Part shown: piece by piece, positions 1 to 25,992 of the stretch | Numbering within the stretch: position 1 is the first letter of the stretch | Layout of the letters: each line of letters begins with the position of its first letter | Virus record (IMG/VR): IMGVR_UViG_3300032397_000006 | Span: 40,086 to 104,085 of that record | Strand: one strand, 5' to 3' | Length of the DNA: 64,000 bases | Source: a virus | Program-made: the position numbers and the translations under genes | Notes under the pieces: model-generated | Seen by the model: the letters and a program-made list of their open reading frames with translations, nothing else | Database searches by the model: none | Told to the model about the DNA's origin: nothing

Positions 1-1775
1 AGATGCGAGGGGGCGACAGAGAGCCGCGTCGAGGAACTGTGCGCGTGCTGGTTTGCGTCGAGCGCTTTGAACCAATCGTTTCCCTGACTGAGCTGAAACA
101 CCGCACCGCCGATGCCCGCCGATCCTGTCGCCGTGTGGCTGTCCTCGTCGGTGGGTAGCGTGCTTTTCGCCGCCAGCGCTTCGGTCACACCGATGATTTG
201 TCGCTCGCGCAAGATCTTGGCTACCGCGTCCTGCGTGACCTTGTAGCGCGACGCGGCTGCTCGCAAATTCTTACTCGTGCCCAGCGACTGCACGAGCTGC
301 CCCATAATGGCTTGAGCCATTGCTTGCTCGTTGTACATTTGCTGCGGCGATTCTTGCGACACCACGCCGTAGCTCGTCTCGATAAAGCTCACGAGATACG
401 GCATGAGAAACCGCTCCGGAATCGCGACGTCGGTACCGTCGTCTGCAAAGCCGTCGAGTCCCTTGCGCAGCACGTTGCGCTGCAACGCGTGGAAAAGTGA
501 TTTCCCAAGAGCACGCGCGCTTTTCTTGACCCTGAACGGATTCTGCTTTTCTTGCTCAGCTGCGTACTCGCGATCGAGGCGCTCTGCATACTCGCGCGCT
601 TCCGCTTGCGGTTCGTACGTGTCCAGGTGTTCCTTGGCTGCGGCCTCGTGCTTCTCCGCTTCAGAATGAAAGCCGTACTTCCTGTGATCCTCTGCGACGA
701 TCAAATGCGCTTCTGCTGCGCGTTTGTGTAGCACTTTCTTGTTTTTTGCGCGCTTATTCGACGCTTCCATATCCGCAATCTCTGCGTCTGCTTTCTTAGC
801 GCGCAGCAGACGGTGGATTTTCTCGTCGACCGCAACGGGCGCGGGAGGCGCAGAGCCCTCGATATACGCGTATTGCCAGCCTCCCTTACCGTCTGGCTTG
901 CGCGTAATGTACTTGTGCCCAGGTCGCTCCGAATTCCAGCTCGATCCCTCCGCCTTAAACATGGAGGATTTTCCGAACGGCTTCTTTCCGCCGAACGCGG
1001 GAGGCTTCTTTTTCGGCTTGGCCTGATCGCCACCGAACGGCTTAGCCTTTGGCTTCGCGCCGAACTGCTGCGCGGGCTTTCCTGTACCGCCGTCTGCATC
1101 CTGATCGTCAGGTACGCCGTCGTCGTCGGCATCCACGTCCTGATCGTCGGGCACGCCGTCCCCGTCCTGATCAGCATCCTGATCGTCAGGCACACCGTCC
1201 CCGTCCTGATCGGGCGCGTCCTGATCGGGCTGCTCGTCGCCGGGACCACCGCCGCCAGCCTCGAGCCCTTGCCCGCCCTGCACCGCACGCACGAGCTTGC
1301 GCACAAGCTTGTGGTACGTGTCGAGCAGCGCCATGGAGTTATGGTGCTGCGCGCCGTGAAATCCCTTCGCGGCGTAGTAGTCGCGCTCTGCATCGGCGAT
1401 TTGCTGCACGAGTGCCTGAGGGTCTTCGCTCGCGTCGCCACCTGCGTCCGCGCCGTCGTCGCCCTCCGGCAGATCCTCCCCATCGCCCTCGTCGTCGAAG
1501 CCCTCGTCGTCGCCTTCCTCGCCCGCGCCGTCGTCGAGCTCGTCACCGTCACCATCACCAGGCCCGGGCTCGCCCTCGTCGCCATCGGGCTCCTCGCCCT
1601 GATCGTCGCCCTGCCCGTCGTCGGGTGCCGTGTCAGACGCGTCCGGAGCTCCGCTGTTCGGATCCTGATCGTCGGGCACACCGTCCCCGTCCTGATCATT
1701 CTCCTCGTCAGCGCCCGCCTTTTTCTTGGCGAACGGCGGCACGGCTTTCAGCAAAAGATCGATCGCGTCTAGCAT
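1..1775 (-). CDS. Large Asp-rich protein with TSP3-type repeats and a GHKY module (3' end outside window)
   Basis: Open from an ATG at 1775 to the window edge, about 591 codons with no stop. It begins MLDAIDLLLKAVPPFAKKKA. A very acidic region follows, with thrombospondin type-3-like calcium-binding motifs (DQDGDGVPDDQD) once near residues 27-38 and three times in tandem near residues 190-225. A short helical segment lies between them. A Lys/Pro-rich linker leads to one GHKYITRKPDGKGGWQYAY module near residues 281-300. Beyond it lie a Lys/Ala/Glu-rich helical stretch and a globular region containing MPYLVSFIETSYG. The module is shared with the next proteins downstream of the operon start, which suggests a virion-associated or head-region protein. 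The TSP3 motif is known to bind calcium in bacterial surface proteins. Its role here is unknown. No portal or capsid signature is visible in the part seen. Confidence 0.8.
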   Translation of the reverse strand, partial: MLDAIDLLLKAVPPFAKKKAGADEENDQDGDGVPDDQDPNSGAPDASDTAPDDGQGDDQGEEPDGDEGEPGPGDGDGDELDDGAGEEGDDEGFDDEGDGEDLPEGDDGADAGGDASEDPQALVQQIADAERDYYAAKGFHGAQHHNSMALLDTYHKLVRKLVRAVQGGQGLEAGGGGPGDEQPDQDAPDQDGDGVPDDQDADQDGDGVPDDQDVDADDDGVPDDQDADGGTGKPAQQFGAKPKAKPFGGDQAKPKKKPPAFGGKKPFGKSSMFKAEGSSWNSERPGHKYITRKPDGKGGWQYAYIEGSAPPAPVAVDEKIHRLLRAKKADAEIADMEASNKRAKNKKVLHKRAAEAHLIVAEDHRKYGFHSEAEKHEAAAKEHLDTYEPQAEAREYAERLDREYAAEQEKQNPFRVKKSARALGKSLFHALQRNVLRKGLDGFADDGTDVAIPERFLMPYLVSFIETSYGVVSQESPQQMYNEQAMAQAIMGQLVQSLGTSKNLRAAASRYKVTQDAVAKILRERQIIGVTEALAAKSTLPTDEDSHTATGSAGIGGAVFQLSQGNDWFKALDANQHAHSSSTRLSVAPSH

Positions 1776-1836
1776 AGGTCTCCCCTCGGATTCTCGCCGA
1801 GAGTACCCTAGCGCCTACGCGAGCGCGAGCGTTGAC

Positions 1837-2007
1837 CTACTTCGCCGCGGACTCGCGTGCAACGCACGCACGGAATCGGACAACATCCTCGCTATCCTCG
1901 AGACTTGAATCCGCCCTGTCGTCGCTGTCGTCGCGCACGTAGTTTTTCAAGCGTTCAAGCATATCCTCGCGACTGAACGAGGCCTTTCTTGGTTTCTGAT
2001 CCTCCAT
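1837..2007 (-). CDS. Small acidic protein, unknown function
   Basis: A 56-residue protein starting MEDQKPRKASFSREDMLERL. Its ATG overlaps the TGA of the upstream kinase gene (TGATG), and a strong GGAGGG site lies just upstream, which favours this start over an in-frame ATG at 2055. It is rich in Asp, Glu, Arg and Ser, with no membrane segment or recognisable domain. It sits between two genes for GHKY-module proteins and is probably co-translated with them. Function cannot be assigned. It could be a small chaperone or scaffold-like partner, but nothing in the sequence shows that. Confidence 0.6.
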   Translation of the reverse strand: MEDQKPRKASFSREDMLERLKNYVRDDSDDRADSSLEDSEDVVRFRACVARESAAK

Positions 2008-3302
2008 CACACCCTCCGGAGCACGAGCTTTACAGCTCGCATAGACTTCATCCAACCACGGGCGCGCGCGATCAAATGTCGGCGTAATCCCGTCTGTTTG
2101 AATTTTCGCACATAGTTCGGATCAATAACAACGTCGGGCTGATTTTCTCCGCCCGCCCACACTAGGCGCGGTTTCGGGCCTGCGTTGTCAAATAGCGAGA
2201 ATTCATGAGCTCTACGCGCTATCTGCTCGAAATTCCCAGGAATGACGTGGTGCGCTTCCCGCACGAAATTGTCAGGCACGTAACGCCCGGTATTCCGCGC
2301 TCGGGAGCCCACGCGGGAGACAGCCTCAGCGAGCGGAATGTGTGGCATCACGAGGTGCACGTGGTAGCCCGCGGCTTTCAGTGCCTCGATTCGCCCAATG
2401 AATTTCTCCGTGTTTTTCCCCGTGCCGTCGAGAATCAAATTCTTGCGCTCTGCCACAGCGCGAGCTCGGACCTTTTCGCCGAGGTCGCTGGACTCCTCGT
2501 GTGCCATGGCCGCGGCATCTTTCGCCGTCACCGTCGATCCGTCCGCTGTGAGTCCGTACGCGAGAGCTCGCTGATACTCAGGTAGCTTTTCCTTACACGC
2601 GTCTGGATCGGACACGACGAAATCATTGTGGTCGCCCACTAGCGTGGCGAGGATCGAGCCCTTGCCGACGCCGGAGCCTCCCATGGTGACGATCGCCGTG
2701 GGCGTGCGATCGAGCGGCACGGGCTTCACGTGCTTGGTAAATGAATCCACGATCGCCGCGTGGAGCGCTTTACGCTCAGGCGTGTAATCCTTGAAGCGCA
2801 CCGGGCGAATACGACCGACCTCGATTGTGTGCGCGGTTTTCGTTTCCGCAGGAAGCCCGATCGAAGTCGCGGATTCGAGCCAAGCGCGATCGCGCTTGGT
2901 TGCGTGCGTTGCGCGCTCCGCGTCTGAAAATACGTGCACCACTTCGGCCGGGCTCACGATCGGGAAACTGCTGGGCGCCTCGCGACGCTGCACCGGCTTT
3001 GTGCCCGTGTGTCCGTAGTCGTAGTTCCAGCCGCCCTTACCATCTGGCGTGCGACGAATGTATTTATGCCCGGGCCGCTCCTCGCCCTTTTCCGACTTGA
3101 GCAAATCGAGCGGGATCACGTGCGCCTTTTGTGTCGGCTGCTGCTGCGCTTGCTGTCGAGGAAAGCGAGCTCGAAATCCGCGCTCCCTCGAGCGTCGGAT
3201 GTCCGAATATTTCTTAGGCTGCGCGAGCCCTTGTGCGAGGCCTCCGCGCAGCATATCGGCGAGGCGTGCCGTCTCGCGTGGATCCTTCGGCGGTAGGCTC
3301 AC
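2007..3302 (-). CDS. GHKY-module protein with zeta-toxin-like P-loop kinase domain
   Basis: About 431 residues from a GTG at 3302, which overlaps the upstream stop as GTGA and sits behind GGGGGA. An in-frame TTG at 3314 is less likely. A GHKYIRRTPDGKGGWNYDY module lies near residues 71-92. The C-terminal half is zeta-toxin/AAA-kinase-like: Walker A GGSGVGKGS near residue 206, then SDPD, a LILDGTGKN strand and an Arg-rich helix (SRVGSRARNTGRYV) with the spacing of zeta-family kinases. Zeta toxins phosphorylate UDP-N-acetylglucosamine and block cell-wall synthesis, and related domains occur in phage polyvalent proteins. Whether this one is toxic, or a nucleotide kinase used after ejection, cannot be told. 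No epsilon-like antitoxin is obvious nearby. The kinase fold assignment is strong and the substrate is inferred. Confidence 0.85.
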   Translation of the reverse strand: MSLPPKDPRETARLADMLRGGLAQGLAQPKKYSDIRRSRERGFRARFPRQQAQQQPTQKAHVIPLDLLKSEKGEERPGHKYIRRTPDGKGGWNYDYGHTGTKPVQRREAPSSFPIVSPAEVVHVFSDAERATHATKRDRAWLESATSIGLPAETKTAHTIEVGRIRPVRFKDYTPERKALHAAIVDSFTKHVKPVPLDRTPTAIVTMGGSGVGKGSILATLVGDHNDFVVSDPDACKEKLPEYQRALAYGLTADGSTVTAKDAAAMAHEESSDLGEKVRARAVAERKNLILDGTGKNTEKFIGRIEALKAAGYHVHLVMPHIPLAEAVSRVGSRARNTGRYVPDNFVREAHHVIPGNFEQIARRAHEFSLFDNAGPKPRLVWAGGENQPDVVIDPNYVRKFKQTGLRRHLIARARGWMKSMRAVKLVLRRV

Positions 3303-6300
3303 GTGTCCCCCCAAATGCGCTTTCCTGCGGTCGCGCCCTGATAAATGTGCGAGGCGATTTTGCCTGCACGGTGCTGATCTTCAATGTAACTCATGGAGTC
3401 TCGATAAATCGAGTCTGCATTTATTGCGCGCGCACTGTCTGGCATGCTGTCGCCCAACGCTACGTTCGGTTTGCCCCCTGGAAATGTCACCTCAGCGAAT
3501 ACGAAATCCGCGTGATCCTTGTGCGCTTCGTGGAATTTCGAGAAGTTTTTCGCGCCCTCTGCGTAGCTGTCGGCGAATACGCGTGCGTCGACCATACGCC
3601 CCGCGCCCACCGCACGTGCGACAGCGCCTGGCCAAGCGCGCTTTGGATCCGAGTGCACAAACATGAACGTGGGCTTTATCCCACGTTTCGCGCACTCAGA
3701 AATCAACCACTCGTTCTCCGTTGCGTTCTGCTCGCCTGCCGCGTCCCAGGTAGCAGCTACTGACTTCGGCAGATCAGGACGCGCGGCAAGGCCTACGCCT
3801 TTGCCCGCCGCACAGCCGCCGCTCGTGACCAAGATCTTACGGTCTCCCGGTGCCATTTTCGCGATCTCGTCAAGGCGCGTGATAAAGGCACGCTTCGCGA
3901 TCGCGTTCGCAGTCTGATGCAGCGCAGTGTTGTACAAGCTCCGCGCCTTGGCACGCTCGAGATTCATCGGCTCGCCTGGCTTATCCGGAGGCAAGTCGTC
4001 GCGCTTCCAGTCGGCGAGCAATGCCTTCGCGCCATCTGTTTCGAACACGTAATTGTTCTTTTTCGCGATCTCGCCGAAAGCCTGAGCTGTACCGTTCGGG
4101 TCGCGCTCGAATGCGTCCGCGAAACGCGTCTCGATCGCACGCTCCTCGTGCGTGAGGTTAGGCAGCTTCGGCACACCAGGCGGGGGCAGCACAGCATCGC
4201 CCGGAATGCCGACGCGTGCGGCTTTCTCGTTCGGCTTCTGCGGCGTGGCGCTCCTCGAGAGCGGCTTACGCTTGACGGCTTGGCCTTGCGCAGATCGCGC
4301 CGTGCGTGGTGGCGCGTTCGTGTAGAAATACTGCCAGCCGCCCTTACCATCTGGCTTGCGCCGCATGTACTTGTGGCCGGCGCGTTCTTGCCCCGGTACA
4401 AATGCCTTTTTCATCGCACGACGGCGCACGCAAAACGTCGTCTGCGATTCCTTCGCACCGGCTTCTACACTGCGCAGTTTCTTGTAGTAGTCCGGACGCT
4501 CGCACAGGTGATCGAGGGCGATATCCGCGGCTTTCTCGAGATCCTTTGTGTGCTCGAGCTCGACCTGCATTCCTGCCTGTAGATCGGTCGCTGTCCAGCG
4601 CGCATGCTCCCACTCCACACCGAGGCGCTTCGCAGCGCTCATAGCTGCATCGTGCGAAACACGAAGTGCTTTCGACTTCCGCGTAGTGTCAGTGGCGCAG
4701 CTCGCGCAAGGCACAACGGGATCGCAGCCAGAGCAGCTCTTTTTCAGCCCCTTTTTCGCCTTCGCGCGAGCTCGGGCCTTACGCCCCTTTGCGCGGTGCG
4801 ACCACTCGAGCGCCTTACCTTCTGGCAGCTTGCCCTCAGCTTCTGCAGCGAAAGCCCAACGGCGCTGCTTTTCGCTAAACGGGTGCTGCATCTTGCCCTT
4901 CGCGAAAGCTTCAAGCTCGTCGAGCGGATCGAGTGATTTCTTTTTCTCAGCTGCCGCCAGCTGCTTTGCTACGCCGTGCGCATAGCTTTCAGCCAGCAGA
5001 GAAGCTCCGCCAAATTCGACATCCTTTGGTGCCACGTGCGACATCTCGCGCACAAAGTGCTCGGCCTCCGCTTTGCTCGTGAGTGCTCCGCCCGCGTTGA
5101 TGGAGTATCCGCTCGGAATATGCGTGACGTGGTAAATGCCGTACTGCCCGCGCGTGATTCCGTAATCGCCGATCGCCGGCATGGACGTGACCTCAGGATC
5201 GCGGATTTCCTTACCGTCTTTATCGCGGATCGCCAAGTGCACGTCGACCGTGCGCAGCTTCTCAGGCTTGATGCCCGCGACCTTTTCAGCTGCGCGCATA
5301 GCGTCGCGGTGCTTCGCGACCTTTTCGAATGCAGATTCCATCGCCTCGTTCAGACCAGGCGCCGCTTTGCGTGAAAACACGTAGGGGTGGCTGTTCTCCC
5401 AAGACTCGCGCCGCGCCTTTGAAGCGACGTCGAGATCCTTACGCGCTTCGGAGAGCTGCTGACTGTGGGAGGCAGCCTCGCGCGCGTGCTCGTGTGGCGT
5501 ATCGCCCGCGACGACGTGTGAATAGACGTAGTGCCAGCCCCCGCGACCATCGGGCTTGCGAGTCAGGTATTTGTGCCCTGCAACCTCGTCGCCCTTCGCG
5601 GCCTTGCTGAGCTCGCCGAGATTGTCTAGCGCATCGCCACTCTTGAGAGCCAGCATTCCCCATTTTTGCGACTCGGCGAGGCCTGCGCGCATGCCTGAGA
5701 ACGCACCCTCAGACATACCTGCCCGCTCGAGAGCAGCATCTAAACGCTCGCGTGTGACCTTCGCATGCGCCTTGGCCTCAGCGTGCCGCGTCGAACCCGG
5801 AGTGTGCGCGTATTGGCTGGCGACACGCTCTGCGCTCGCGCGCTCGTGCTCGCGCGACGCTGCCACCACAGCGCGCTGTGCAAGTGGCGCCTTACGCTTC
5901 GCATGCGCGTCTGCGTAGTCGTAGCGCCAGCCGCCGTGCCCGTTCGGCTCGCGCTTGAGATACTTGTGGCTGGTTGCCTCGTCGCCCTTGGAGGCCTTGA
6001 TCAAAGGCAAGAGTGCATCGATCGCGTCGGCTGATTTATACGCGAGCGAAGTCGTCTTGAGGGCAACCCTACGCACGGTGCTAGGACTCGCGCGCAAACG
6101 GGACACGGTTTGCTTGTTCCAGAAATGCTCGATCTTACGTTTCGCTTTGCGCTTGGCTTTACGCGCAGCGAGCGCGCCCTTGATCTTTGCGTAGACGTAA
6201 CTCCAACCGCCCTTACCGTCAGGCTTGCGCTCCGTGTACTGATGCCCTGCCTGCTCCCCGCCGCGTACAGCATCAGCCTTCGCTGCTTTAATAAACAGCA

Positions 6301-7501
6301 CAGGTGCCGATTTCTCGACTTTTGCCGGACGCCACGCATCGGGCTTCGTGTCAGGCTTTACGCCGTCTGCATTCTTGTCGTAGGAGCTGTCTTTTATGTA
6401 GCCACGCGGCACGACGTCGAACGTGCAGTAGATGCCCATAATACCGATCGTGCTCCCCCAATTTTCGGTTGTGATCGGCGACGCTTTGTAGACGCTGTGC
6501 CGCTCAGTAAGGATCTTTTTTCGCATCTCTTTCACAGCACCCCACAGAGCATCTTTCTCGCCCTTGTTCGCGTAGGTGCTGTGGAACTTGATCGTCGCCT
6601 TAGCAGTCGGGCGAAATGTCTTCGGGTGCGTTTCGCGTATCACGCTAACGGTCCCTTTTTCGCCGAACGTCTTCGGTCCTTTCTCGATATCAGAGAGCAG
6701 CTTGTCTATTTCCGGTGGCGGCAGCTCGCCCTCTTTTTTAGAGGCCGCATGCTCCGCGCTACCCTCTGCGGGATATTCATAATCCCAGCCGCCCTTACCG
6801 TCTGGCTTGCGCGTAAGGTATTTGTGCCCCGGGCGCTCCTCGCCCTTGGCTAGAGATTTCTCGTATTTGAATTCCGCGGTCTCCCGCTCGTATTTCGGCA
6901 CTTGATAAGGATCTACGTGTTTCCACCGCCCCTCGTGCCATACGGGCTCGAGATTCTTTTTCTTGCGCGCAGCTGGTAAAGGCGCCGTAAATAGCGGCGT
7001 AGCCGGCTTGTGCTCATCGATTCGCGCTTCGGAATAGCCGCCAGGCAAGCGCCGCGTGCGCACATACGAAGGGTAATTGCCGAGACTGCGCGGCATGTCG
7101 AAATCAACGTTGTCGGAAGTCGCGCCGTCTCCCTCCAATAGGTGCCCGAAAACCTTAATCTCTTTCGAGTGCCAGCTCCCGCCCGCCGTGGCCAGGTACA
7201 CCTTACCGTTATGCGGCAGCAGAAAAGGCGCGCTGTGCCCCTCGGTCGCGGCTTGCTCGATCGCTTGCTTGAGCACGCTCGGATCAAAGGCGCCCACTTG
7301 TTTCTTGTGATCGGCGGGAGGCTTGTAGCTGTATTTCCATCCGCCTTTACCATCTGGCGAGCGCAGCAGATATTTGTGCCCCTCGACCTCTACGCCCTTC
7401 GCCGCTTTCTCGAGTAGCGCTAGGGGATCGAGCTCAGGCTGAGCTCTCACAAGGCTCAAGCCGATTGCGTGCTTTCGAAGTGCTGAGATCGCATCAGTCA
7501 T
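3299..7501 (-). CDS. Giant polyvalent protein with six GHKY modules, DUF5661-like and second zeta-like kinase domains
   Basis: A 1400-residue protein. The ATG at 7501 overlaps the upstream TGA (ATGA), so I prefer it to the in-frame ATG at 7540. Six copies of the GHKY/PDGKGGW module lie near residues 35-56, 218-240, 413-433, 505-526, 635-657 and 1036-1056 and divide the chain into segments. Between modules 5 and 6 there is a Cys cluster (CSGCDPVVPCASC, near 923-935) and a DUF5661-like segment near 971-1008 (VELEHTKDLEKAADIALDHL). The C-terminus holds a P-loop kinase-like domain with Walker A TSGGCAAGKG near 1225, similar in layout to the zeta-like domain of the next gene. Several segments are rich in Lys, Arg and Ala. 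The architecture resembles phage polyvalent proteins carried in virions. Location in the particle is inferred from neighbours only. Confidence 0.88.
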   Translation of the reverse strand: MTDAISALRKHAIGLSLVRAQPELDPLALLEKAAKGVEVEGHKYLLRSPDGKGGWKYSYKPPADHKKQVGAFDPSVLKQAIEQAATEGHSAPFLLPHNGKVYLATAGGSWHSKEIKVFGHLLEGDGATSDNVDFDMPRSLGNYPSYVRTRRLPGGYSEARIDEHKPATPLFTAPLPAARKKKNLEPVWHEGRWKHVDPYQVPKYERETAEFKYEKSLAKGEERPGHKYLTRKPDGKGGWDYEYPAEGSAEHAASKKEGELPPPEIDKLLSDIEKGPKTFGEKGTVSVIRETHPKTFRPTAKATIKFHSTYANKGEKDALWGAVKEMRKKILTERHSVYKASPITTENWGSTIGIMGIYCTFDVVPRGYIKDSSYDKNADGVKPDTKPDAWRPAKVEKSAPVLFIKAAKADAVRGGEQAGHQYTERKPDGKGGWSYVYAKIKGALAARKAKRKAKRKIEHFWNKQTVSRLRASPSTVRRVALKTTSLAYKSADAIDALLPLIKASKGDEATSHKYLKREPNGHGGWRYDYADAHAKRKAPLAQRAVVAASREHERASAERVASQYAHTPGSTRHAEAKAHAKVTRERLDAALERAGMSEGAFSGMRAGLAESQKWGMLALKSGDALDNLGELSKAAKGDEVAGHKYLTRKPDGRGGWHYVYSHVVAGDTPHEHAREAASHSQQLSEARKDLDVASKARRESWENSHPYVFSRKAAPGLNEAMESAFEKVAKHRDAMRAAEKVAGIKPEKLRTVDVHLAIRDKDGKEIRDPEVTSMPAIGDYGITRGQYGIYHVTHIPSGYSINAGGALTSKAEAEHFVREMSHVAPKDVEFGGASLLAESYAHGVAKQLAAAEKKKSLDPLDELEAFAKGKMQHPFSEKQRRWAFAAEAEGKLPEGKALEWSHRAKGRKARARAKAKKGLKKSCSGCDPVVPCASCATDTTRKSKALRVSHDAAMSAAKRLGVEWEHARWTATDLQAGMQVELEHTKDLEKAADIALDHLCERPDYYKKLRSVEAGAKESQTTFCVRRRAMKKAFVPGQERAGHKYMRRKPDGKGGWQYFYTNAPPRTARSAQGQAVKRKPLSRSATPQKPNEKAARVGIPGDAVLPPPGVPKLPNLTHEERAIETRFADAFERDPNGTAQAFGEIAKKNNYVFETDGAKALLADWKRDDLPPDKPGEPMNLERAKARSLYNTALHQTANAIAKRAFITRLDEIAKMAPGDRKILVTSGGCAAGKGVGLAARPDLPKSVAATWDAAGEQNATENEWLISECAKRGIKPTFMFVHSDPKRAWPGAVARAVGAGRMVDARVFADSYAEGAKNFSKFHEAHKDHADFVFAEVTFPGGKPNVALGDSMPDSARAINADSIYRDSMSYIEDQHRAGKIASHIYQGATAGKRIWGDT

Positions 7502-10500
7502 CGCTTCCCCGTTTCCACAGCGTCCCGGATCGTAGCCCATTCTCGCACGTTGAAGCGTATCGAAGGCTTCTGCGGCGCCGCCCCATGGAAAGCGTATTTA
7601 CCACTGTTCCGGCGTGCGAGGGCCTTCCTTCGGCGCCTGGAGGCCTTCACTTCCTTTTCGGTCTGCACGGTCCCGTAGATGCCCTCGAAATCGGGGGACT
7701 CCTGCGAAGGGCTGTAGCGCTGCACGACGTAGGATTTCACGAGAGCTCCGTGGTTGCTCGGGTCGGTCACGAACGCGGCGAAATCTTCGAACGCGACCGC
7801 GCGCACTTGCCCCAAGAATCGAGGATCGTCGTAGTGCGCTTGGTAAGCCTGCACCGCGGCACCGAGATTCGAAAACCCGAGCATGCACTTCTGTTCGTCT
7901 ACGTGCACGAAGTCGGGCGACTTGAGCTGATCGATCACGAACACGTAAGGCGCCATCTTGTCGGGCCCGACGTAGACGTCCACGTGATCGCCATCCGTGC
8001 CTTGCGTGCGCCGCACATAGCCGTAGTCGTGCACCATCTTTGTTTTGCCTGCGCGCTTCGCGTGTGCGTCGTACCAGTGCCGGTAAGATCCTGCCTGGTT
8101 TTCGACGCTCACCTTTAGCCCGCGGAAATCCCGACGCCTGTGCAGCTTGCGCGACTTCTCGAGCGGAGCTTTCAAGCTGTCGATCACTTCTGTAATCGCA
8201 TCGTCGCTGTCCTCAATATGCGCGCCGAAACGCGCGAAAGCCTGCCTGATCGCAGGTTCAATCATGCGCCGCCCCCCGGGCTCGCTCGCGAGCTCTGCGT
8301 ACTCCTCTCGATATTCAGCCAGCGCATTGATCGCGTGCGACACTGCTTGCTTTCTGCCCTCAGGCGAAGCAATAGGCTGCAGCTCGTAGGAGCGTTGATC
8401 CTCTTTTGATAGAGGCGCGTCGTAGGTCACGGTGCCGTGCCGAAAAGCAGGATGCTTTCCAATCGAGGAAAATCCTTTAGGCGCTGTGAACGTACCGATC
8501 GGCCTATTCTGCATACCGTACACGTAGTGCCAGCCTCCCTTACCATCAGGGTGACGCTCCGCGTAAAGGTGCCCCGCTTGCTCCTCGCCCTTTGCCGCTT
8601 TACGCAACACGAGCAGCGCCTTCAATACAGCATCCTGAAACGCGTGGCGCTTATCCCAATCGAAATCGAGCGCGAATTTCGACGGTCTGCCGGGTGTCTC
8701 GACGCGCGTATAGAAATCCTCAGCTGCGGGCTTATATTCGTAGCCCTTGCCTTTATGGTGCTCGCCCGCGTGTCCGCCCGTCGTGAAATGCATCTCATGC
8801 GCTCCGCGGTGCGAATGAATTACTGAGTCTTGATTAAACTGCTTTCCGAGCGCGCGCATAACACCAAACTCGCTAGGCGAATCGTGGTGCACCATGAAGG
8901 CATTACTTTTCTGCGGCTTCGCGCTCTCGTGATGCACGATAAAGCTCGCCTCACGCGAACCATAATGCCCCTCGACCTCGGTATAGCGGAGCTTGCGCTT
9001 TTTCAGCTCGCCTCGCAGGCGTTCGTGTCGCGCTTTGAATTCCGCGTGATCCTCAGACATGTCCTTTTCGCGCGCGTCGTTTCCGTTGCGACCTGCGCTG
9101 ATAATCGAATAGGTGCCGTGCTCGAGCAGATCGTCCAGCTGCGGACGCGTGAGACGCACCTCGCCCGCGGGTTTGCGTGGAGGTCTGTCGCTCGGGTGCC
9201 CGGGCAGATCATAGCCGTAGCGCCAGCCTCCCTTACCGTCTGGCGTGCGGCGCACGTACTTGTGCCCCGGACGCTCGCCTTCGCTGCCCTCGCGCGCTTT
9301 ACGGATCGCTTCGCCCCACGGAATGATATGCATACTTTTCTCCGTACCCTCTGCGCGGGCTTTGACGGCTGCGTAAGTGTCAGGGTGCACCGCAGGCGCA
9401 TCGCCATCGTCGCGCGTCGCGTTGCCCTTCATGTCCACGCCCAGCCACATTCGCCAGTGTCGATCAAGCTGCCCGATCGAGGAAATCACTCCGGGCTTAG
9501 CGAGCAGTTCCTTTGCCATCTTTTCGCGCTCGGCCTTCGGCAGCTTGCTCGCGTGATACTGCTCGACCTCGAGTTTCTGTTGCTGCTCTGCGGCAACCTT
9601 GTCCTGCGCTGCGCGCTTCGCTTGCGCCGCTTCGCGTTCGGCCTGCGCGGCTGCCTCGCGTGCTGGAGCGCCCGCTTCCCACTCCGCTTGCTTTTGCTTC
9701 TCTGCAGCCTTCGCGGATTTCTTTTCAGCCTCTCGCCGCGCTTCGCGTTCGGCCTCGACCTTCTCTGTCTCGTGCGGCAACGAAATACGATGGCGCTTGA
9801 AAGCATCCGGATCCGGATCGCCGAGCTCCCCTTGTGCTTCCTGAATCGCTGCTGCGGGGACCTGCAAATCATCGCGTGCCATCACGAGCGTTTCTTCTTC
9901 GCCCTCGTACGCACCTAGATCAGCCTCGTGCTCCGCGTGAAACAAGACGGCTTCAACAGGCACGTCGAGCGTGACCACGGCGCCGCGCGTTGCGTACTGC
10001 GTGCCGAAGTCGTGCGCGCTTTCGTGGTCGCTGGTCCAGCTCGACAAGCTGCGCACTGCAACGGGAACGGTGCCGCCCTGCGCTTGCTTCGCTTGCTCGA
10101 CAAGGGCCTTACCCTGGTCGTGCGCAATGCCGCGATGAATGCGCACTGTGCGCTCGCCCTTGGCAGCGAATAGCGCCTGCGTCGCTGCGTACTGCCTGAT
10201 CGCCATCGCTTCGCAGTCGTCGATTTCCTTTTTCGAGATACGGGACGCACGCGTAACCGCTTCTGCAAACGTACGCTTTTCGTCTGCGCTTGCGCGACCT
10301 CGAGCGATCTTGCCGATCAACGCGAGTTGTGGCGTGGTTTTCGTCATCCATTCATTTCGCCAAGCGTTACGCACGTGTGACTCGTCGGAATGATCGGCGA
10401 AAGCATCATCCGTGTGGGAAATGCCTTTCATGGACGCGGCGAGCGCTGCGATTTTCTTTTTATGCGCAGGCGACATGCCGAGATCAGGAGATACCGCGTA

Positions 10501-12750
10501 AGTGTTCTGCGCTGCCGGCGTGCGCACGCCCTTACTGTCCTCGTAGAAGTAGTTATGCCCGCCCTTACCATCGGGCTCACGGCGAATGTATTTGTGTCCC
10601 GGGCGCTCGCTGCCTTCGCTCTTTTTCAGTTTGAATCTGGCGAGCACTTCTGGCTTGCGCATTACGCGCTCGATCGGACGCCCAAAACGGTCAGTATCTT
10701 CTCCCTCCTCGGATGATTGCGAGCCCAGCAGGAGGGCGTACTTTCCTTGATAGGCTTTTGCGTGATCTAATGCCCGCGAGACGTCGCTACCGTCTCGGCT
10801 ACCTAGATCAATTGCGCTAGTCCCGTCGAGAACATCATCCGTAGGTTCACCATCCTCCCAGCGGCGGGACTCTGCTAAAATAGAACCGACCTCAGGTGGA
10901 TCTGCGTCGTCAACAATGCGCAAGCCGATCGTATGAAATTCAGGCGCATATTCTTTCAGTATCGACTTCACGGCGTCTATGTGCAACGGCGAGATGTCAG
11001 TTCTCTCGCGCTGCTTGAGTCTATCTTCGAATTGGAGGTCGGAGAATTGCCGCGTAGGCGCGAGCTCGCGCACTTTCGCAACATGCTCGCGCAGCTGATC
11101 GAGCGACATCGCGCCTTCATCGAAAGTCGCGAATAAATCGAGGCTCAAGTCGAGCGCGAGGTGCGGCTCAATCTGAAAATCAATTGCGCGTAGCCCTTTG
11201 ATCTTGGTGTTGAGCTCTGCTGCTGCACGCTTACCGATCGGCTGCACGTAGCCGATATCGATCATCTTCGGTTTATCGCCCTCGATCACGAATGAGTTTT
11301 CCTTGAATTCAGGCGCTGTGAATTCGTGCTCGCGCAGCACCTTCGCAATCGTCTGGTGCGCCTCCCACAAGCCTTTCGAACCCCACCCCCCGGGTCTGCC
11401 CTCGACCTCAGCGCGCACGAGCGTGTCAGTGTCCGCGTCGTATTTTTCGAACGAGGGCACGAGGTCTTTCGTGCGCGGATCCTTGCTCAGCACCTCGAGA
11501 GCGTGCGCTTCATTCTTGCGCGAGCTCACGCCGCGGCGACCGACCTTGTACGCGGAGGCTCCATCCGTGAACACGATGCCCTCAGCGCCCGCCCCTAGCA
11601 GGCTCAGGGTGCCCGCTCTCGCGCCAGCCTTCACGGCACGTGCCGCAGCCTGCGGGAGCTCCGCGTGGACGGCGGCAGGCGCGTCCTCGAGTAACTTTGC
11701 GACGTCGACCTGTTCCGGGCGCTCCAACTTTTTCAGCGCTTCGGCCAGATCCTGATCAATGACCAGCTTACCGAAGGCGTCGGCATCCTTGCGGAGCGCG
11801 TGCGACATATCGATCAACTCGAGTGCGAATTTGTCCCGTTGCGCGTCTTGCTTCGGCGGGAACTTCAACACGTGTCGTAGCTGCGCTTCCCACTCATATT
11901 CGAGATTCGCGCCGCGAGGCGTGTAACGCTGTCCATTGCGTGCGTACAGACTCTCAAGTCCGTCGAGATCACTCTGCTGCGGAGACAGATGCCGGTAGCC
12001 GTCGTAGGGCTCCGCCTTGCCCGCCTTGCCTACGTCGAACATGAAGGCCTTACCGTCGTCATCGACACCGATCTGCGGCGTGTCGCCGAGCACGTAGCCG
12101 GCTTTGTGCATCGCGAGCACCGTATCGTGGGCCGCGTCGAGCTGCTCTAGCGTGAGCTTGTCGGGAATGCCGAGATAGCGCTTGATCGTGTAGCCGCGCC
12201 CGTCGTGCTCCACGAAGCGCTCAGGCAGTAGCCCGGGCACTCCGGCATCGCGGAGAGCTTGCTGTGTCTCGTGCTGCTCGCGTGCGACCTCGACAGCTTT
12301 CTGCGCTGTCTTGTACCAGGGGTTTGACGGCTGATAGGGGACAACCGTGCTGACTTTGACAACGTTGTCCCCTGACTTGAAAACAAGACCGTCGTCGCCC
12401 TTACCAAGAAACTCGGCAGTACCTCCGGTCACGGCGTCGATATCCGGATCTCCGCTTTTCTTATCGCTGACTACGCGGCCTTCTAAATCATCCTTGTACA
12501 TAGCAAGCGCGTCGTGCGAAATCTTGTGCCCGTAGCCAGGCACCGTCGCGTGAAAGCCGACGCTCGCGTGCGTGTCGTCGGAATCAAATACTTTCCATTT
12601 GAGCGTGCCGCGCATTCCGAGCTTTTCGTGCGGCGTAATGTCGATCTCATGCCCCGCTAAATAGCGATAGAGCCAGCCGCCCTTACCATCAGGATGGCGC
12701 TCGAGATACTTGTGCCCCTCTACGGTTTCGCCCTTGGCTGCCTTCTGCAT
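7498..12750 (-). CDS. Giant polyvalent protein: kinase-like x2, ADP-ribosyltransferase-like, DUF3293-like and InPase-like domains with four GHKY modules
   Basis: A 1750-residue protein starting MQKAAKGETV. GHKY/PDGKGGW modules lie near residues 5-29, 714-736, 1154-1177 and 1387-1409. Two protein-kinase-like lobes are visible. The first has LGKGDDGLVF...VVKVS at 115-134 and a later DDDGKAFMFDVGKAG. The second has LLGAGAEGIVF...YKV near 381-400 and KPKMIDIGY near 490. Both lack a clear HRD motif, so they may be degenerate. Residues about 860-960 fit an ADP-ribosyltransferase: IHRG, SLSSWTSDHESAHDF, then GEEETLVM as the ExE turn. An Ala/Glu/Lys coiled coil follows (about 990-1070), then a DUF3293-like region (about 1207-1354) and an inorganic-pyrophosphatase-like (InPase) domain with DGDHVDVYVGP (about 1544-1671). 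Such domain strings are typical of polyvalent phage proteins thought to be ejected with DNA. Activities are not proven. Confidence 0.88.
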   Translation of the reverse strand: MQKAAKGETVEGHKYLERHPDGKGGWLYRYLAGHEIDITPHEKLGMRGTLKWKVFDSDDTHASVGFHATVPGYGHKISHDALAMYKDDLEGRVVSDKKSGDPDIDAVTGGTAEFLGKGDDGLVFKSGDNVVKVSTVVPYQPSNPWYKTAQKAVEVAREQHETQQALRDAGVPGLLPERFVEHDGRGYTIKRYLGIPDKLTLEQLDAAHDTVLAMHKAGYVLGDTPQIGVDDDGKAFMFDVGKAGKAEPYDGYRHLSPQQSDLDGLESLYARNGQRYTPRGANLEYEWEAQLRHVLKFPPKQDAQRDKFALELIDMSHALRKDADAFGKLVIDQDLAEALKKLERPEQVDVAKLLEDAPAAVHAELPQAAARAVKAGARAGTLSLLGAGAEGIVFTDGASAYKVGRRGVSSRKNEAHALEVLSKDPRTKDLVPSFEKYDADTDTLVRAEVEGRPGGWGSKGLWEAHQTIAKVLREHEFTAPEFKENSFVIEGDKPKMIDIGYVQPIGKRAAAELNTKIKGLRAIDFQIEPHLALDLSLDLFATFDEGAMSLDQLREHVAKVRELAPTRQFSDLQFEDRLKQRERTDISPLHIDAVKSILKEYAPEFHTIGLRIVDDADPPEVGSILAESRRWEDGEPTDDVLDGTSAIDLGSRDGSDVSRALDHAKAYQGKYALLLGSQSSEEGEDTDRFGRPIERVMRKPEVLARFKLKKSEGSERPGHKYIRREPDGKGGHNYFYEDSKGVRTPAAQNTYAVSPDLGMSPAHKKKIAALAASMKGISHTDDAFADHSDESHVRNAWRNEWMTKTTPQLALIGKIARGRASADEKRTFAEAVTRASRISKKEIDDCEAMAIRQYAATQALFAAKGERTVRIHRGIAHDQGKALVEQAKQAQGGTVPVAVRSLSSWTSDHESAHDFGTQYATRGAVVTLDVPVEAVLFHAEHEADLGAYEGEEETLVMARDDLQVPAAAIQEAQGELGDPDPDAFKRHRISLPHETEKVEAEREARREAEKKSAKAAEKQKQAEWEAGAPAREAAAQAEREAAQAKRAAQDKVAAEQQQKLEVEQYHASKLPKAEREKMAKELLAKPGVISSIGQLDRHWRMWLGVDMKGNATRDDGDAPAVHPDTYAAVKARAEGTEKSMHIIPWGEAIRKAREGSEGERPGHKYVRRTPDGKGGWRYGYDLPGHPSDRPPRKPAGEVRLTRPQLDDLLEHGTYSIISAGRNGNDAREKDMSEDHAEFKARHERLRGELKKRKLRYTEVEGHYGSREASFIVHHESAKPQKSNAFMVHHDSPSEFGVMRALGKQFNQDSVIHSHRGAHEMHFTTGGHAGEHHKGKGYEYKPAAEDFYTRVETPGRPSKFALDFDWDKRHAFQDAVLKALLVLRKAAKGEEQAGHLYAERHPDGKGGWHYVYGMQNRPIGTFTAPKGFSSIGKHPAFRHGTVTYDAPLSKEDQRSYELQPIASPEGRKQAVSHAINALAEYREEYAELASEPGGRRMIEPAIRQAFARFGAHIEDSDDAITEVIDSLKAPLEKSRKLHRRRDFRGLKVSVENQAGSYRHWYDAHAKRAGKTKMVHDYGYVRRTQGTDGDHVDVYVGPDKMAPYVFVIDQLKSPDFVHVDEQKCMLGFSNLGAAVQAYQAHYDDPRFLGQVRAVAFEDFAAFVTDPSNHGALVKSYVVQRYSPSQESPDFEGIYGTVQTEKEVKASRRRRKALARRNSGKYAFHGAAPQKPSIRFNVREWATIRDAVETGKR

Positions 12751-19069: not shown

Positions 19070-19085
19070 AGCTGCAAGAGTAACA

Positions 19086-19852: not shown

Positions 19853-19857
19853 TAGCG

Positions 19858-20958: not shown

Positions 20959-21039
20959 TTTATACCTCTACGCTGGCGCCTTATCGCACGGTATTATAAG
21001 TGTGCATTGATCGACTGCGCGGGATTTCCGAGTCTTGGT

Positions 21040-21556: not shown

Positions 21557-21566
21557 CGCGCGCCTT

Positions 21567-21863
21567 TCAGTGCGTTGCCGAATCCACGCGCTCCGAGATA
21601 GCCGCGAGCGCGATCTTTGCCGTGTCTGCTACGAACGTCTTTTCGTCGGCTAATTTAGCGCTCGCTCCCGTTAGCAGGAACAGCACGGCATTATGTCTAC
21701 GGTGCCAGCGCTCGTGATCGAGCTTCGCCGTGCACTCGCTATCGTTGTCCGCATTCAGCACGCCCTCGTGTGCGTCCTGCCACTCCGTATCGAGCAGCAT
21801 TAACGCCACTGCTAGCGTCACGACTCCGGTAAATAGACCCGTTGCATCCTCGTCAGTTTCCAT
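21567..21863 (-). CDS. Hypothetical helical protein
   Basis: 98 residues from the ATG at 21863, two bases after the methyltransferase gene ends. The in-frame ATG at 21926 lies inside that gene and is less likely. The sequence is helical with a hydrophobic stretch (GLFTGVVTLAVALMLLDTEW) that could be a buried helix or weak membrane segment, then ERWHRRHNAVLFLLTGASAK. Family unknown. Confidence 0.55.
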   Translation of the reverse strand: METDEDATGLFTGVVTLAVALMLLDTEWQDAHEGVLNADNDSECTAKLDHERWHRRHNAVLFLLTGASAKLADEKTFVADTAKIALAAISERVDSATH

Positions 21864-21864
21864 T

Positions 21865-22428: not shown

Positions 22429-22718
22429 TTGCGACACCGCGGCATCCTGCGCGCTAGCGGCACGGTGCGAAGTGCTGCCGTGTGCTCGCGTAGAAAATCG
22501 AGCACGTACCGCGTGGCCTCGGCCTTCGCGTCCTCGATTCCCTTGTGCTCTAACGGCACGCGCGAGATCCCTAGTCGGGGGCAGCTCAACAGCCACTGCG
22601 TAGCGGCAAAATCAATATGCCGGTGCACGCACAGCTCGCACTGCCCGAATTTCACGCGATGCGCGTACGCGATCGTCGTGCCTGCCCTCGTGTCCTCGAT
22701 CCAATCGCCCACGCTCAC
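22425..22718 (-). CDS. Small Cys/His protein
   Basis: 97 residues. CELCVHRHID near residue 27 and a later SCPRLG suggest a metal site. A helix (KGIEDAKAEATRYVLDFLRE) and an Arg-rich tail follow. It overlaps the methyltransferase start by four bases and may be co-translated with it. No recognised family. Confidence 0.5.
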   Translation of the reverse strand: MSVGDWIEDTRAGTTIAYAHRVKFGQCELCVHRHIDFAATQWLLSCPRLGISRVPLEHKGIEDAKAEATRYVLDFLREHTAALRTVPLARRMPRCRK

Positions 22719-22766
22719 CCCTGCGCGCGGCTTTACTACGGCGTACGATAACCGTCAAGCTGCAGA

Positions 22767-23345
22767 TCAACGCTCGATAAACGCGAGCAAACGATCTATT
22801 GCTTCGACCTCCGGATCGGGCGCTTGCGCGGGCACTAGGCGGAGCACCGCGGCTTGCCTAGGCGCGTGCAGCAGTCGCACCGGAGGTGCTGCTACAGGCG
22901 CTTCGAACGAGGCCAAGGTGCGCGCCTTATCGTCGCGCTCAAGCTCCCAATCAAACGAGACCGAACCGTAAAAGTTCACGTCGAAATAGTCGGTCATCCT
23001 GTCCGATCGGTCATAGTTGTAAGCGTCTCGAATGCCCTCTAGCGCGTCCAGCAAAGCCCGCGCTGCGTCGGTGTAGCGGCCTCCCGGGTGCGAGGTCGAG
23101 TGCGGGTAATCCCGTTCGTACAGCACGCGTTCAGGGCTGCAAATCACGAAACCCTCAGGCGCCGCAGTGACCTCCACGTCGAGACTGCGCCCTCCGCTAT
23201 ATTTTCGTACGCGCACCGAGATTTTGCAGTCCGGCATCGCGCCCGACTTGATCGAGGCCTTGATCTCCGCGCGCACACGCTTTGCGATGGCCACGATCGA
23301 CAAGTCGCGATCGTATTTCGAACCTGAGCTATTGCAGTTTTCCAT
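22767..23345 (-). CDS. LPD29-like protein
   Basis: About 192 residues (MENCNSSGSKYD). IAKRVRAEIKASIKSG then KISVRVRKYSGGRSLDVEVT, and a later MTDYFDVNFYGSVSF, match the large polyvalent protein-associated domain LPD29, found in phage and conjugative-element proteins. The C-terminal 50 residues are Pro/Ala-rich and probably flexible. Upstream is the common AAGGGAAGGG ribosome site but no palindrome, so this start may be read from the next module upstream. The family's biochemical role is unknown. Confidence 0.7.
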   Translation of the reverse strand: MENCNSSGSKYDRDLSIVAIAKRVRAEIKASIKSGAMPDCKISVRVRKYSGGRSLDVEVTAAPEGFVICSPERVLYERDYPHSTSHPGGRYTDAARALLDALEGIRDAYNYDRSDRMTDYFDVNFYGSVSFDWELERDDKARTLASFEAPVAAPPVRLLHAPRQAAVLRLVPAQAPDPEVEAIDRLLAFIER

Positions 23346-23367
23346 CACGGTACCCTTCCCTTTTTAT

Positions 23368-23625
23368 TCACACGCGCTTGTACGAACTGCTCAGTGCGTA
23401 CTCAGCGGCAACGCGCCGGCACGCGGATTTCAGAAAGCTTTTCGAGTACCCGCGCAGCACCTTCAACTCGTGCGCCCAGCATCCAAGAATACTCCCGCCA
23501 AGCACCTTCACTTCGACGCGAACATCGTCCGCCCAAACCACTTCGCCCTCGAGACCAGCCCAGCTCGGACACTGCACACCGACGTACCGAACGATCGCGC
23601 CTTTTTTGACTTCCTTGTTTCCCAC
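23368..23625 (-). CDS. Small KOW/SH3-like protein
   Basis: 85 residues from GTG at 23625, fixed by the palindrome/ribosome-site module directly upstream; the frame extends to 23739 only by reading through that module. KKGAIVRYVGVQCPSWAGLE then GEVVWADDVRVEV reads as an SH3/KOW barrel. The CWAHELKVL strand and a basic helix follow. It is likely to bind nucleic acid or a protein. Function unknown. Confidence 0.6.
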   Translation of the reverse strand: MGNKEVKKGAIVRYVGVQCPSWAGLEGEVVWADDVRVEVKVLGGSILGCWAHELKVLRGYSKSFLKSACRRVAAEYALSSSYKRV

Positions 23626-23680
23626 AAAGCACCTTCCCTTCAATCTAGTTATCTCACGACGCGATAACTCGCGCAAGCGG
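23626..23680 (-). promoter_or_regulatory. Repeated promoter/palindrome/RBS module, copy 1
   Basis: Palindrome 23648-23668 (GTTATCTC, 5 nt, GCGATAAC). TTGCGC lies 17 bases upstream of GATAAC as a -35/-10-like pair, and CTAGATTGAAGGGAAGGTG leads into the GTG start at 23625. Confidence 0.75.
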
Positions 23681-23692
23681 AAACGCCCGCGG

Positions 23693-24115
23693 TCAGGAGA
23701 CCGAGCGCGCCAGATCTTCGACCGCTCGCCGCAAGTCAAACCGATTCAAGTCTTCGTCCAGACTTTCGCGCCCGAGTACGCGCTCAGCGAGAGCTCGCAC
23801 TTTCAAGATGTCGTCACTGAATTCCTCGTTCACACACTCGAGTTTTTCCACCTGATCTTCGAGCTCGCTGATCTCGCCGCGCAAGCGCTCGATCACGTTG
23901 CGTTCACTCACGAGCTCGTCAACCAAGCACTGCGCCAGCTTCGCAAACTGCAGCGCGATAGGCCCCACGTCCCGCGCCACGCCGTTATCGACAACACACA
24001 CGCCTTCACTTTGGAGCACTGAGACGAACGCCCGAAAATCCTCGATCTTCCGGTCAGCCGCTTCCTCGAGTGACAGCGCCTTCGGTCGCGCCTTCGCTTT
24101 TACGTTCCTTGCCAC
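23693..24115 (-). CDS. Coiled-coil protein
   Basis: 140 residues from GTG at 24115, directly after a conserved module. A basic N-terminus (ARNVKAKARPKAL) precedes a helical body with a heptad-rich stretch (VIERLRGEISELEDQVEKLE), followed by an acidic C-terminal half. It is likely an elongated dimer. No family recognised. Its own promoter-like module implies independent regulation with the 50-55 kb genes. Confidence 0.55.
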   Translation of the reverse strand: MARNVKAKARPKALSLEEAADRKIEDFRAFVSVLQSEGVCVVDNGVARDVGPIALQFAKLAQCLVDELVSERNVIERLRGEISELEDQVEKLECVNEEFSDDILKVRALAERVLGRESLDEDLNRFDLRRAVEDLARSVS

Positions 24116-24172
24116 GACTCACCTTCCCTTCGATTTAGTTATCGCATGTTCCGATAAGCTATGCAAGATCAA
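24116..24172 (-). promoter_or_regulatory. Repeated promoter/palindrome/RBS module, copy 2
   Basis: Palindrome 24138-24158 (imperfect right arm). TTGCAT lies 17 bases from GATAAC, then CTAAATCGAAGGGAAGGTG leads to the GTG at 24115. Confidence 0.75.
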
Positions 24173-24175
24173 AAG

Positions 24176-24499
24176 CTAGTCGCTTGCGGCATCATCGTAC
24201 GCTGCGATTCCGTGCCGATTCAGCACCTCAGCGAACACGCGCGCTCGTCCGAGAGCTCGGCCGTCCGCATTGTCGTAGCCCATGTAAATCGCGTTCTTGC
24301 CCACGCCGTAGCCTTGCGCGTTGAAGATCAGGCCAGACTGCTCACACACCTTTTTGACCGCTTTGATCAGAGCGCGGTCACCCGACACGCATACGTAAGC
24401 ACGACCGCAGCCGGACGCGCGAGCAGCAATGTAGGGCGCGTCATTTGCCTCGCGGATTGCTACGGCCACCTTGCTCTCGAGCTCTGAATTCTTTCCCAT
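24176..24499 (-). CDS. Hypothetical alpha/beta protein
   Basis: 107 residues from the ATG at 24499, fixed by the module upstream (reading further to 24550 would cross it). SELESKVAVAIREANDAPYI, then an alternation of strands and helices (AYVCVSGDRALIKAVKKVCE) and YGVGKNAIYMGYDN. The fold resembles a small ACT-like or ferredoxin-like domain. Family not recognised. Confidence 0.55.
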   Translation of the reverse strand: MGKNSELESKVAVAIREANDAPYIAARASGCGRAYVCVSGDRALIKAVKKVCEQSGLIFNAQGYGVGKNAIYMGYDNADGRALGRARVFAEVLNRHGIAAYDDAASD

Positions 24500-24555
24500 G
24501 AAACACCTACCCTTCAATCTAGTTATCGCACGAGACGATAACAGCGGCAACGCTT
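24500..24555 (-). promoter_or_regulatory. Repeated promoter/palindrome/RBS module, copy 3
   Basis: Palindrome 24522-24542 (GTTATCGT, 5 nt, GCGATAAC on the minus strand). TTGCCG lies 17 bases from GATAAC, followed by CTAGATTGAAGGGTAGGTG and the ATG at 24499. Confidence 0.75.
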
Positions 24556-24582
24556 TTCGACCGCTAACGTAGGAGCGCTCGC

Positions 24583-25992
24583 TTAACTCTCGACGCTGTG
24601 TCTGTGAGCGGCGTGCCTCTCGGCTGCCTGCCGGCTGCCGGTCTCTGCGATCACGCTGCCTGCGCGGCGCACTTGCCAGAGCCCGTCCGATCCACGCTGT
24701 ACCGTGTGCTGCCCGTGCGTCGCCACGACGGGCCCTGTAGCGCTCGCTGGATCGCGCACGGGCAAAGGGGGTGGCGTACCGCCAGCCTTGCCCGGAAGGG
24801 GCGGAGGCTTGGCGGCGTCGGCCTGTTTCGGCAACGGCGGAGGCACGCCCGCGGCACGCGTCGGAGGTGTCTCGCGCTTGCGCTGATCCACAGCCGCGAG
24901 CGCTGCCGCTTGCGCCGCAGCACGCTTTGCCTTCGCACCTCGAGGCTTCGCGCCCTTCGCGCCCTGCAACGAGGCCAACAGCTTCGCGTGCTGCGCGAGC
25001 TGCGCGCCTTGCTGCGCGAGCTGCGCCTGTAGCTTGCCCTCCCTGCGCGTCGATTTCGCATGCTCCGCGGTCAGTGCTGCGTGTCCATTCGCTTGCGCTG
25101 CTGCGTGCTCTCGCAATTGCGAGCGTGCCGCTTTCGCTGCTCTCTGATCGCCTGAGCGTTTCGCCTGCACGAGTGCACTGCGCGCGATCTTGTGCTCGCG
25201 CACGAGCGCTTGCGTCGAGGCCTGATGCTGCGCGTGCTGTTGCGCGAGCTGACCGTGCAACGCCTTAAGCTGAACCTGAGTCTGTTTATGGGCTGCGATC
25301 AAATGCTGTTGCGCGATCGCGTGCGCCTGCATTTGTTTCGCATTACGTTTCTTCGACTCTGCGAGCCGTCCCGACGCGGTGCGCTTATGTGCCTGCAGTT
25401 TTTTCGCGAACGCTTTCTGATGCGAAAGCAACGCGCCCGCAGAGATTCGCTTCTGCTGCTCGAGTCTCTTACTGTGTGCGCGAACCGTAAGCTTGAGCTT
25501 TTTCTTGAAGGCCTTCTGATGCGCGAGGAGCTTCTCTGTGTGCTGCTTTTTCTGCTGCTCAAGTTTCTGCTTAGGCGTGAGCTTTTTCGCCTTACTGCGC
25601 GCAGGCACGTGCAACGGCATGCGGGCAAGCTTGCTCCACTTACCGCCAGCTTTACGACCTACCCATTTCTTACCGTCGAAACGAAACTCGTGCCGCTGGC
25701 CGCGCGACTTGACGTGAAAGGTGCTCGCCTTTCCGGAGTGCTCGATCTTGTGCACCATGCCCGCGGCACCCGTCCGCATCGCAACGGCGGTACCTACGCC
25801 TAGTCGTCGAGGAGCGCCCTGCGGCGCTGCGTAGACGTAATTCCAACCACCCTTACCGTCTGCTTTACGCGTAAGGTATTTATGACCAGGCATTTCCTGC
25901 CCGGGCACAGCAGCTTTACGCAAGGGCTCCGCAAAAGACAGCACGTCGAAGTGCGTCACGTCTTGTGCAGTCAACGGAATTACCAGGAGCAT
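24583..25992 (-). CDS. Long coiled-coil, Pro-rich protein with one GHKY module
   Basis: 469 residues. A GHKYLTRKADGKGGWNYVY module lies near residues 36-54. It is followed by a short beta-rich domain (FHVKSRGQRHEFRFDGKKWV) and a Lys/Gln/His/Ala-rich coiled coil of about 230 residues. A Pro-rich segment (PPPLPKQ, PPPLPGK, PPPLPVR) and a final small domain (LWQVRRAGSVIAETGS...) close the chain. The module links it to the giant proteins left of 12.75 kb although 12 kb of other genes lie between. The length and regularity of the coil suggest a fibrous virion or scaffold element. Its start overlaps the upstream stop (TAATG). Confidence 0.75.
   Translation of the reverse strand: MLLVIPLTAQDVTHFDVLSFAEPLRKAAVPGQEMPGHKYLTRKADGKGGWNYVYAAPQGAPRRLGVGTAVAMRTGAAGMVHKIEHSGKASTFHVKSRGQRHEFRFDGKKWVGRKAGGKWSKLARMPLHVPARSKAKKLTPKQKLEQQKKQHTEKLLAHQKAFKKKLKLTVRAHSKRLEQQKRISAGALLSHQKAFAKKLQAHKRTASGRLAESKKRNAKQMQAHAIAQQHLIAAHKQTQVQLKALHGQLAQQHAQHQASTQALVREHKIARSALVQAKRSGDQRAAKAARSQLREHAAAQANGHAALTAEHAKSTRREGKLQAQLAQQGAQLAQHAKLLASLQGAKGAKPRGAKAKRAAAQAAALAAVDQRKRETPPTRAAGVPPPLPKQADAAKPPPLPGKAGGTPPPLPVRDPASATGPVVATHGQHTVQRGSDGLWQVRRAGSVIAETGSRQAAERHAAHRHSVES

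Follow-up and report, generated by a model that had tools for sequence, protein, structure and literature searches.

We analyzed a 64,000-nucleotide stretch of viral DNA (hereafter the window), comprising bases 40086-104085 of the 104,085-bp virus record IMGVR_UViG_3300032397_000006, in which a short protein module recurs within a group of large genes. The record is that of a tailed phage whose identified genes all lie on the minus strand. A six-frame search located 13 copies of the module, every one of them on the minus strand; they are distributed over five open reading frames (ORFs): six in g47 (3299-7501), four in g48 (7498-12750), and one each in g44 (3-1775), g46 (2007-3302), and g73 (24583-25992). 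When a profile was built from these 13 copies, it detected no additional copy at E ≤ 10 across the whole virus record, and this absence elsewhere in the record is the informative part of that search.

The module is bipartite, consisting of a hydrophobic-x-Lys-(Ala/Ser) site followed, 3 to about 13 residues later, by a beta-hairpin of the form GHKYxxRxPDGKGGWxYxY. In all 13 window copies, the first element ends 8-13 residues before GHKY. In the following, an arrow marks the putative cut position, and the coordinates of the hairpin are given after the site residues. Module 1, in g44, spans 864-962 (MFK↓A at 951-962; hairpin 864-920), and module 2, in g46, spans 3015-3104 (LLK↓S; 3015-3071). Modules 3-8, in g47, lie at 4322-4414 (MKK↓A; 4322-4378), 5522-5611 (LSK↓A; 5522-5578), 5915-6004 (LIK↓A; 5915-5971), 6191-6295 (FIK↓A; 6191-6247), 6773-6865 (YEK↓S; 6773-6829), and 7325-7414 (LEK↓A; 7325-7381). 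Modules 9-12, in g48, lie at 8518-8607 (LRK↓A; 8518-8574), 9211-9306 (IRK↓A; 9211-9267), 10543-10629 (LKK↓S; 10543-10599), and 12661-12750 (MQK↓A, at the extreme start of g48; 12661-12717). Module 13, in g73, occupies 25831-25923 (LRK↓A; 25831-25887). The residues H, Y, R, G, G, G, Y, and Y are invariant over the 13 copies, whereas P, D, W, and the leading G show one exception each. A preliminary description of the window had reported 13 copies in the same five ORFs, which our search reproduced. The overall pattern it gave also holds, apart from single-copy departures in modules 5 (SHKY..PNGHGG), 6 (GHQY), 9 (GHLY), 11 (GGH for GGW), and 13 (KADG for KPDG). The string KAAKGEE that it placed ahead of the motif does reflect an upstream element, but one that takes the looser hydrophobic-x-K-(A/S) form.

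The mean identity among the 13 copies is 72% at the protein level and 71% at the DNA level. At residues shared between copies, the codon is identical in 55% of cases, compared with 44% expected from codon usage. Codons are thus nearly randomized at shared residues, indicating that the copies are old and that their protein sequence has been kept by selection. This codon divergence rules out recent gene-internal duplication as their source, and chance was likewise rejected.

All modules fall outside the Pfam domains identified; one copy lies at or near the N terminus in g48, g73, and many relatives, and other copies are internal. g48 matches PF07357, PF23780, PF18789, and PF18823 (ADP-ribosyltransferase-like, S-adenosylmethionine (S-AdoMet) lyase, DarA_C, and InPase), with the ADP-ribosyltransferase-like match below the curated cut-off and DarA_C just below it. 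g46 carries a zeta-toxin domain at residues 191-365, after its single module (PF06414, E 1.7e-24), and g47 combines DUF5661 (PF18905, E 1.5e-12) with several segments of no assigned identity. By our reading, the first g48 segment may be kinase-like and the last g47 segment P-loop kinase-like. Cuts at the module sites of g48 and g46 would isolate each domain found, except DarA_C and InPase, which would share one fragment. Two further hydrophobic-x-K-S sites, with no hairpin, flank the g48 InPase (after K1532 and K1672; domain 1538-1660; window 7501-8598), as if this domain were releasable on both sides. g44, which in full encodes 657 amino acids (G000:39887-41860) and extends past the window edge, is acidic with DxDxDG repeats and has a weak match to an internal virion protein (PHROG 11550, E 1.9e-4). 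At window positions 1096-1211 of this ORF, which adjoins the portal gene, 39-base tandem repeats encode successive copies of DQDGDGVPDD, a sequence similar to the calcium-binding type 3 repeats of thrombospondin. g73 adjoins the terminase gene and is coiled-coil-like beyond its module. g48 combines several domains with different activities in a single polypeptide, and the five tagged ORFs are encoded among virion genes, from terminase to portal. Both are characters of polyvalent proteins, a class also marked by delivery into the host with the DNA, and, as these are set out in the relevant passages of Iyer et al. 2017 (PMC5512222), the tagged proteins would count among them.

Pattern and profile searches of IMG/VR and annotated phages yielded 60 nonredundant copies, comprising the 13 of the window and 47 from more than 30 other viral records. 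Most of 30 further records hold several copies apiece, and their tagged ORFs are often consecutive. Annotated phages that carry the module include Thermus phage Lalka8, whose tagged gp4 shares its region with DarB-like and portal genes, and Leptospira phage LE1, whose tagged gp26 adjoins a tail-annotated gene beside the major head protein. In four relatives (G001, G002, G004, and G011), the tagged ORFs lie within head clusters that hold homologs of the head genes of the window phage. The tagged proteins carry, among other domains, InPase, ART-PolyVal, Kinase-PolyVal, zeta toxin, Nudix, RNA ligase, tRNA nucleotidyltransferase, GNAT, RadC, portal, and MuF; those that the tag often precedes are zeta toxin, InPase, ART, Nudix, and tRNA nucleotidyltransferase. 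One relative has the order portal, tag, DUF5661, InPase (L069), and another MuF, HATPase, tag, PolyA polymerase (L068), which places the tag between a virion protein and an effector. A second hairpin subtype (L010:4852-5004, L023, and L040) runs straight into a YxYTxxxYxxxxG/K stretch, a strand and then a probable helix, and may represent an extended, domain-sized form of the module. In the window phage, copies from the same genome resemble one another more closely than copies from different phages do. Once the window phage was removed, this difference was not significant (permutation 0.18), and coevolution with a phage-specific partner was not retained as an explanation.

Searches of Pfam, PHROGs, NCBIfam, and both the sequences and the folds in the PDB gave no match to the module, and searches of the literature for the strings GHKY and PDGKGG returned nothing relevant. 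Weak hits to DUF3892 and otubain were judged to be chance and those on plasmids to be unrelated ATPases, and two segments of g48, when searched against PDB sequences, likewise gave no match. In an AlphaFold2 model of 56 aligned copies, a helix is followed by a loop and then by a confidently predicted hairpin; the overall confidence is modest (mean predicted local distance difference test score (pLDDT) 67), with about 89 in the hairpin block. A small tagged protein of another phage is predicted to have a disordered leader, the hairpin, and a helical domain (one of five models good). Unrelated effector domains follow the module, as the preliminary description had noted, although g73, and g44 with its single weak match, cannot be recognized as enzymes. 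Its view of the tagged proteins as virion cargo fits the terminase-portal context, the polyvalent effector domains, and the portal and MuF fusions in relatives. Of the targeting, ejection, and cleavage roles it had offered, cleavage is favored by the apparent head-protease site directly upstream of the hairpin.

Across the 60 copies, 37 carry hydrophobic-x-Lys-(Ala/Ser) within 29 residues of the hairpin, and 48 do so if Gly is allowed after Lys. Shuffling gave a mean of 5.2 and a maximum of 13 (2000 shuffles), and random windows of the same ORFs gave 7.5. Among nine copies outside the discovery set, the site was present in four with Ala/Ser and in eight with Ala/Ser/Gly. The spacing between site and hairpin is variable, mostly 3-4 or 8-11 residues. 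Site density per 1000 amino acids was 1.7 in tail, 2.0 in replication, 8.2 in head, and 6.8 in tagged proteins. We also considered a G-x-E cut site of the T4/phiKZ type (KGEE↓), which is found in most window copies and not conserved in relatives; the K-(A/S) site was preferred.

The tagged ORFs belong to a head gene cluster. In order of transcription, it runs from the large terminase at one border (27143-28735, minus strand; PF17289, E 6.2e-7) through g73, a run of small genes, g48, g47, g46, g44, and the portal gene (PF04860) to genes for a MuF-like protein, a protease resembling S78, a scaffold-like protein, and a capsid protein of the SU10 MCP family (PF17236). The genes from portal to capsid protein lie outside the window, at G000:24862-39877. 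We read g28 as MuF-like; it has no Pfam hit itself, and a homolog occupies the same place in relatives. The MuF-like protein (L013:9147-10889, outside the window) bears a C-terminal LEHEIGHS motif, which likely marks a zincin metallopeptidase and a possible second protease for effectors; polyvalent systems often include a zincin metallopeptidase for processing. Elsewhere in the window, an ORF of the replication region (38955-40499) contains 3.3 identical (100%) tandem copies of a 42-base unit (39122-39259), which encode an Ala-rich stretch.

The capsid protein and protease of the window phage are homologous to those of Herelleviridae (SPO1, A511-like, and K/812; 627 and 611 matching phage records), and the capsid protein aligns along its length with SPO1 gp6.1. 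The capsid precursor of phage 812 reads EDVVKSFQTGYG (EDVVKSFQTG; VVK↓S), and the sequence in the virion structures (PDB entries 9row, 9rox, and 9roz; 48 chains) comprises residues 25-463, beginning with that Ser. We take the Ser after Lys to be the mature N terminus of the 812 capsid protein, a point on which a paper about the neck of 812 is silent. Residues 165-207 of the 812 protease match the 812 capsid protein from its mature first residue onward. The window phage has the equivalent pair, LRK-ALYAGNAVTDPGVAPGEGFPLRPQSLE in the capsid protein and LAK-SLSAGSAVTDPGVAPGEGFPLRRQSLE in the protease: a near-identical 25-residue segment after LxK(A/S) is common to the capsid N terminus (L013:4862-6262) and the C-terminal region of the protease (L013:7227-7967), both outside the window. 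This pairing recurs in relatives, which like the window phage have LxK(A/S)LxA... segments, and in Herelleviridae, each with its own residues. The scaffold ORFs of seven phages contain 3-9 hydrophobic-x-K-(A/S) sites each, exceeding shuffles in six of the seven. The simplest reading is that hydrophobic-x-K↓(A/S) would be the cut consensus of the SPO1-like protease group, a consensus derived from phage 812 homologs. The first part of the module matches this inferred capsid cut site, and the consensus is present at all 13 modules, at the capsid-protein site, and in the scaffold.

On balance, we consider it somewhat probable that the module marks junctions at which the prohead protease processes effector polyproteins of the virion during head maturation, with each effector keeping an N-terminal hairpin. 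g48, g47, g46, g44, and g73 would enter the prohead along with scaffold and capsid protein, and the S78-like protease would cut the chains after Lys at hydrophobic-x-Lys↓(Ala/Ser) as the head ripens. The capsid would then hold about a dozen separate effectors (a zeta-like kinase, an ADP-ribosyltransferase, an S-AdoMet lyase, a DarA-like protein, an InPase, and further ones), each bearing the same hairpin at its new N terminus, ready for ejection with the DNA. The data show how the module is built, how widely it occurs, that it lies between domains, and that its first part matches the inferred capsid site; the cutting and packaging of the tagged proteins, and the hairpin as a tag retained on the cargo for docking or ejection, are what we infer.

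Several observations weigh against such a junction. About a fifth of the relatives lack K-(A/S/G) near the hairpin, among them L069, in its portal-InPase fusion, and L049 and L052, in their small tagged proteins. Sites of the same form also occur away from the modules in tagged ORFs (3.4 per 1000 amino acids compared with a background of about 2), so that folding would have to protect them. The site motif is short, and the Pfam S78 match of the window phage's protease falls below the curated cut-off. The weakest point is the role of the hairpin: because it is missing from the capsid protein, protease, and scaffold, all of which carry the site, the hairpin is not needed for cutting. It could serve as an exosite to enhance cleavage at particular junctions; since it would stay on the cargo, our preferred guess is a handle for retention or ejection.

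The recurrence of one tag ahead of unrelated cargo, near the N terminus of many tagged ORFs, could also be explained if scaffold, portal, or capsid protein bound the leader helix and hairpin, so that any fused protein was carried into the prohead, with cutting secondary or absent. There is precedent in P1 DarB, whose first 30 residues are enough to target a reporter (PMC9024508), and the targeting sequences of T4 are likewise cut by the head protease, so targeting and cutting can coexist. However, a single signal would suffice for each polypeptide, whereas the six modules of g47 and the four of g48 are interspersed among domains, and the tag is present even on cargo that portal or MuF fusions already place in the head and that needs no targeting. 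We regard a capsid targeting signal as unlikely, although it is the alternative we take most seriously.

The position of the module, always outside recognized domains, and its prediction as an isolated hairpin would also suit a structural spacer or fold cap that insulates neighboring domains or rigidifies the chain for tail passage with no specific partner. Neither the near fixation of His, Lys, Tyr, Arg, and the Gly-rich turn across very different phages nor the link to the Lys-Ala/Ser site would be expected of such an element, making it improbable. Still less credence can be given to a nucleic acid-binding hairpin that holds cargo on the packaged genome. The conserved residues are basic and aromatic, and nucleic acid-binding domains are frequent in polyvalent proteins according to the passages of PMC5512222 on them, but no known DNA-binding family was matched in Pfam, PDB sequence, or fold searches, and the turn also has acidic residues.

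A cleaved junction would have consequences for a gap in the field, namely how multidomain phage effectors are loaded and separated, where processing has been assigned to metallopeptidases and targeting signals lack a consensus. It would couple cargo release to head maturation and supply a cut-site rule for SPO1-like head proteases, and, being recognizable, it would allow effector cargo to be found and parsed by domain in unannotated phages. More tentatively, and as a possibility we would not call probable, many unrelated tailed phages may use this portable combination of head-protease site and retained hairpin to make true polyproteins, from which the maturation protease cuts a dozen individually ejected effectors whose hairpin handle is recognized by the ejection machinery.

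In the libraries and papers searched, we did not find the junction module, its spread, or its coupling to the Lys-(Ala/Ser) site described, and the passages of PMC5512222 on polyvalent proteins make no mention of it. Those passages assign polyvalent processing to embedded zincin metallopeptidases and propose the analogy of a polyprotein with proteolytic release. The systems described there have in common with ours multidomain effectors whose genes accompany head genes and whose domains are of the zeta toxin, ART, InPase, and DarA types; unlike them, the window proteins have a short junction that recurs before the cargo and includes a site like that of the head protease. In T4 and SPN3US (PMC10052503 and PMC7411985), the head protease matures ejected head proteins at a short consensus, removing N-terminal propeptides at E-terminated motifs, whereas here multiple internal junctions after Lys, each with a hairpin, would split one chain into separate effectors. 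As in the capsid targeting sequences of T4 and P1 DarB (PMC9024508), where a short N-terminal sequence sends unrelated proteins to the head, a common element precedes diverse cargo; no targeting consensus was found for the Dar proteins (PMC9024508), whereas the module has a clear consensus that recurs both within single proteins and from phage to phage. The MuF polymorphic toxins (PMC5576092) similarly join a head-packaged domain to variable effectors, and some tagged ORFs elsewhere are MuF fusions. Those toxins carry an N-terminal MuF domain, whereas a Pfam search gave no MuF match (PF04233) in the five tagged proteins of the window, whose common element is the hairpin module.

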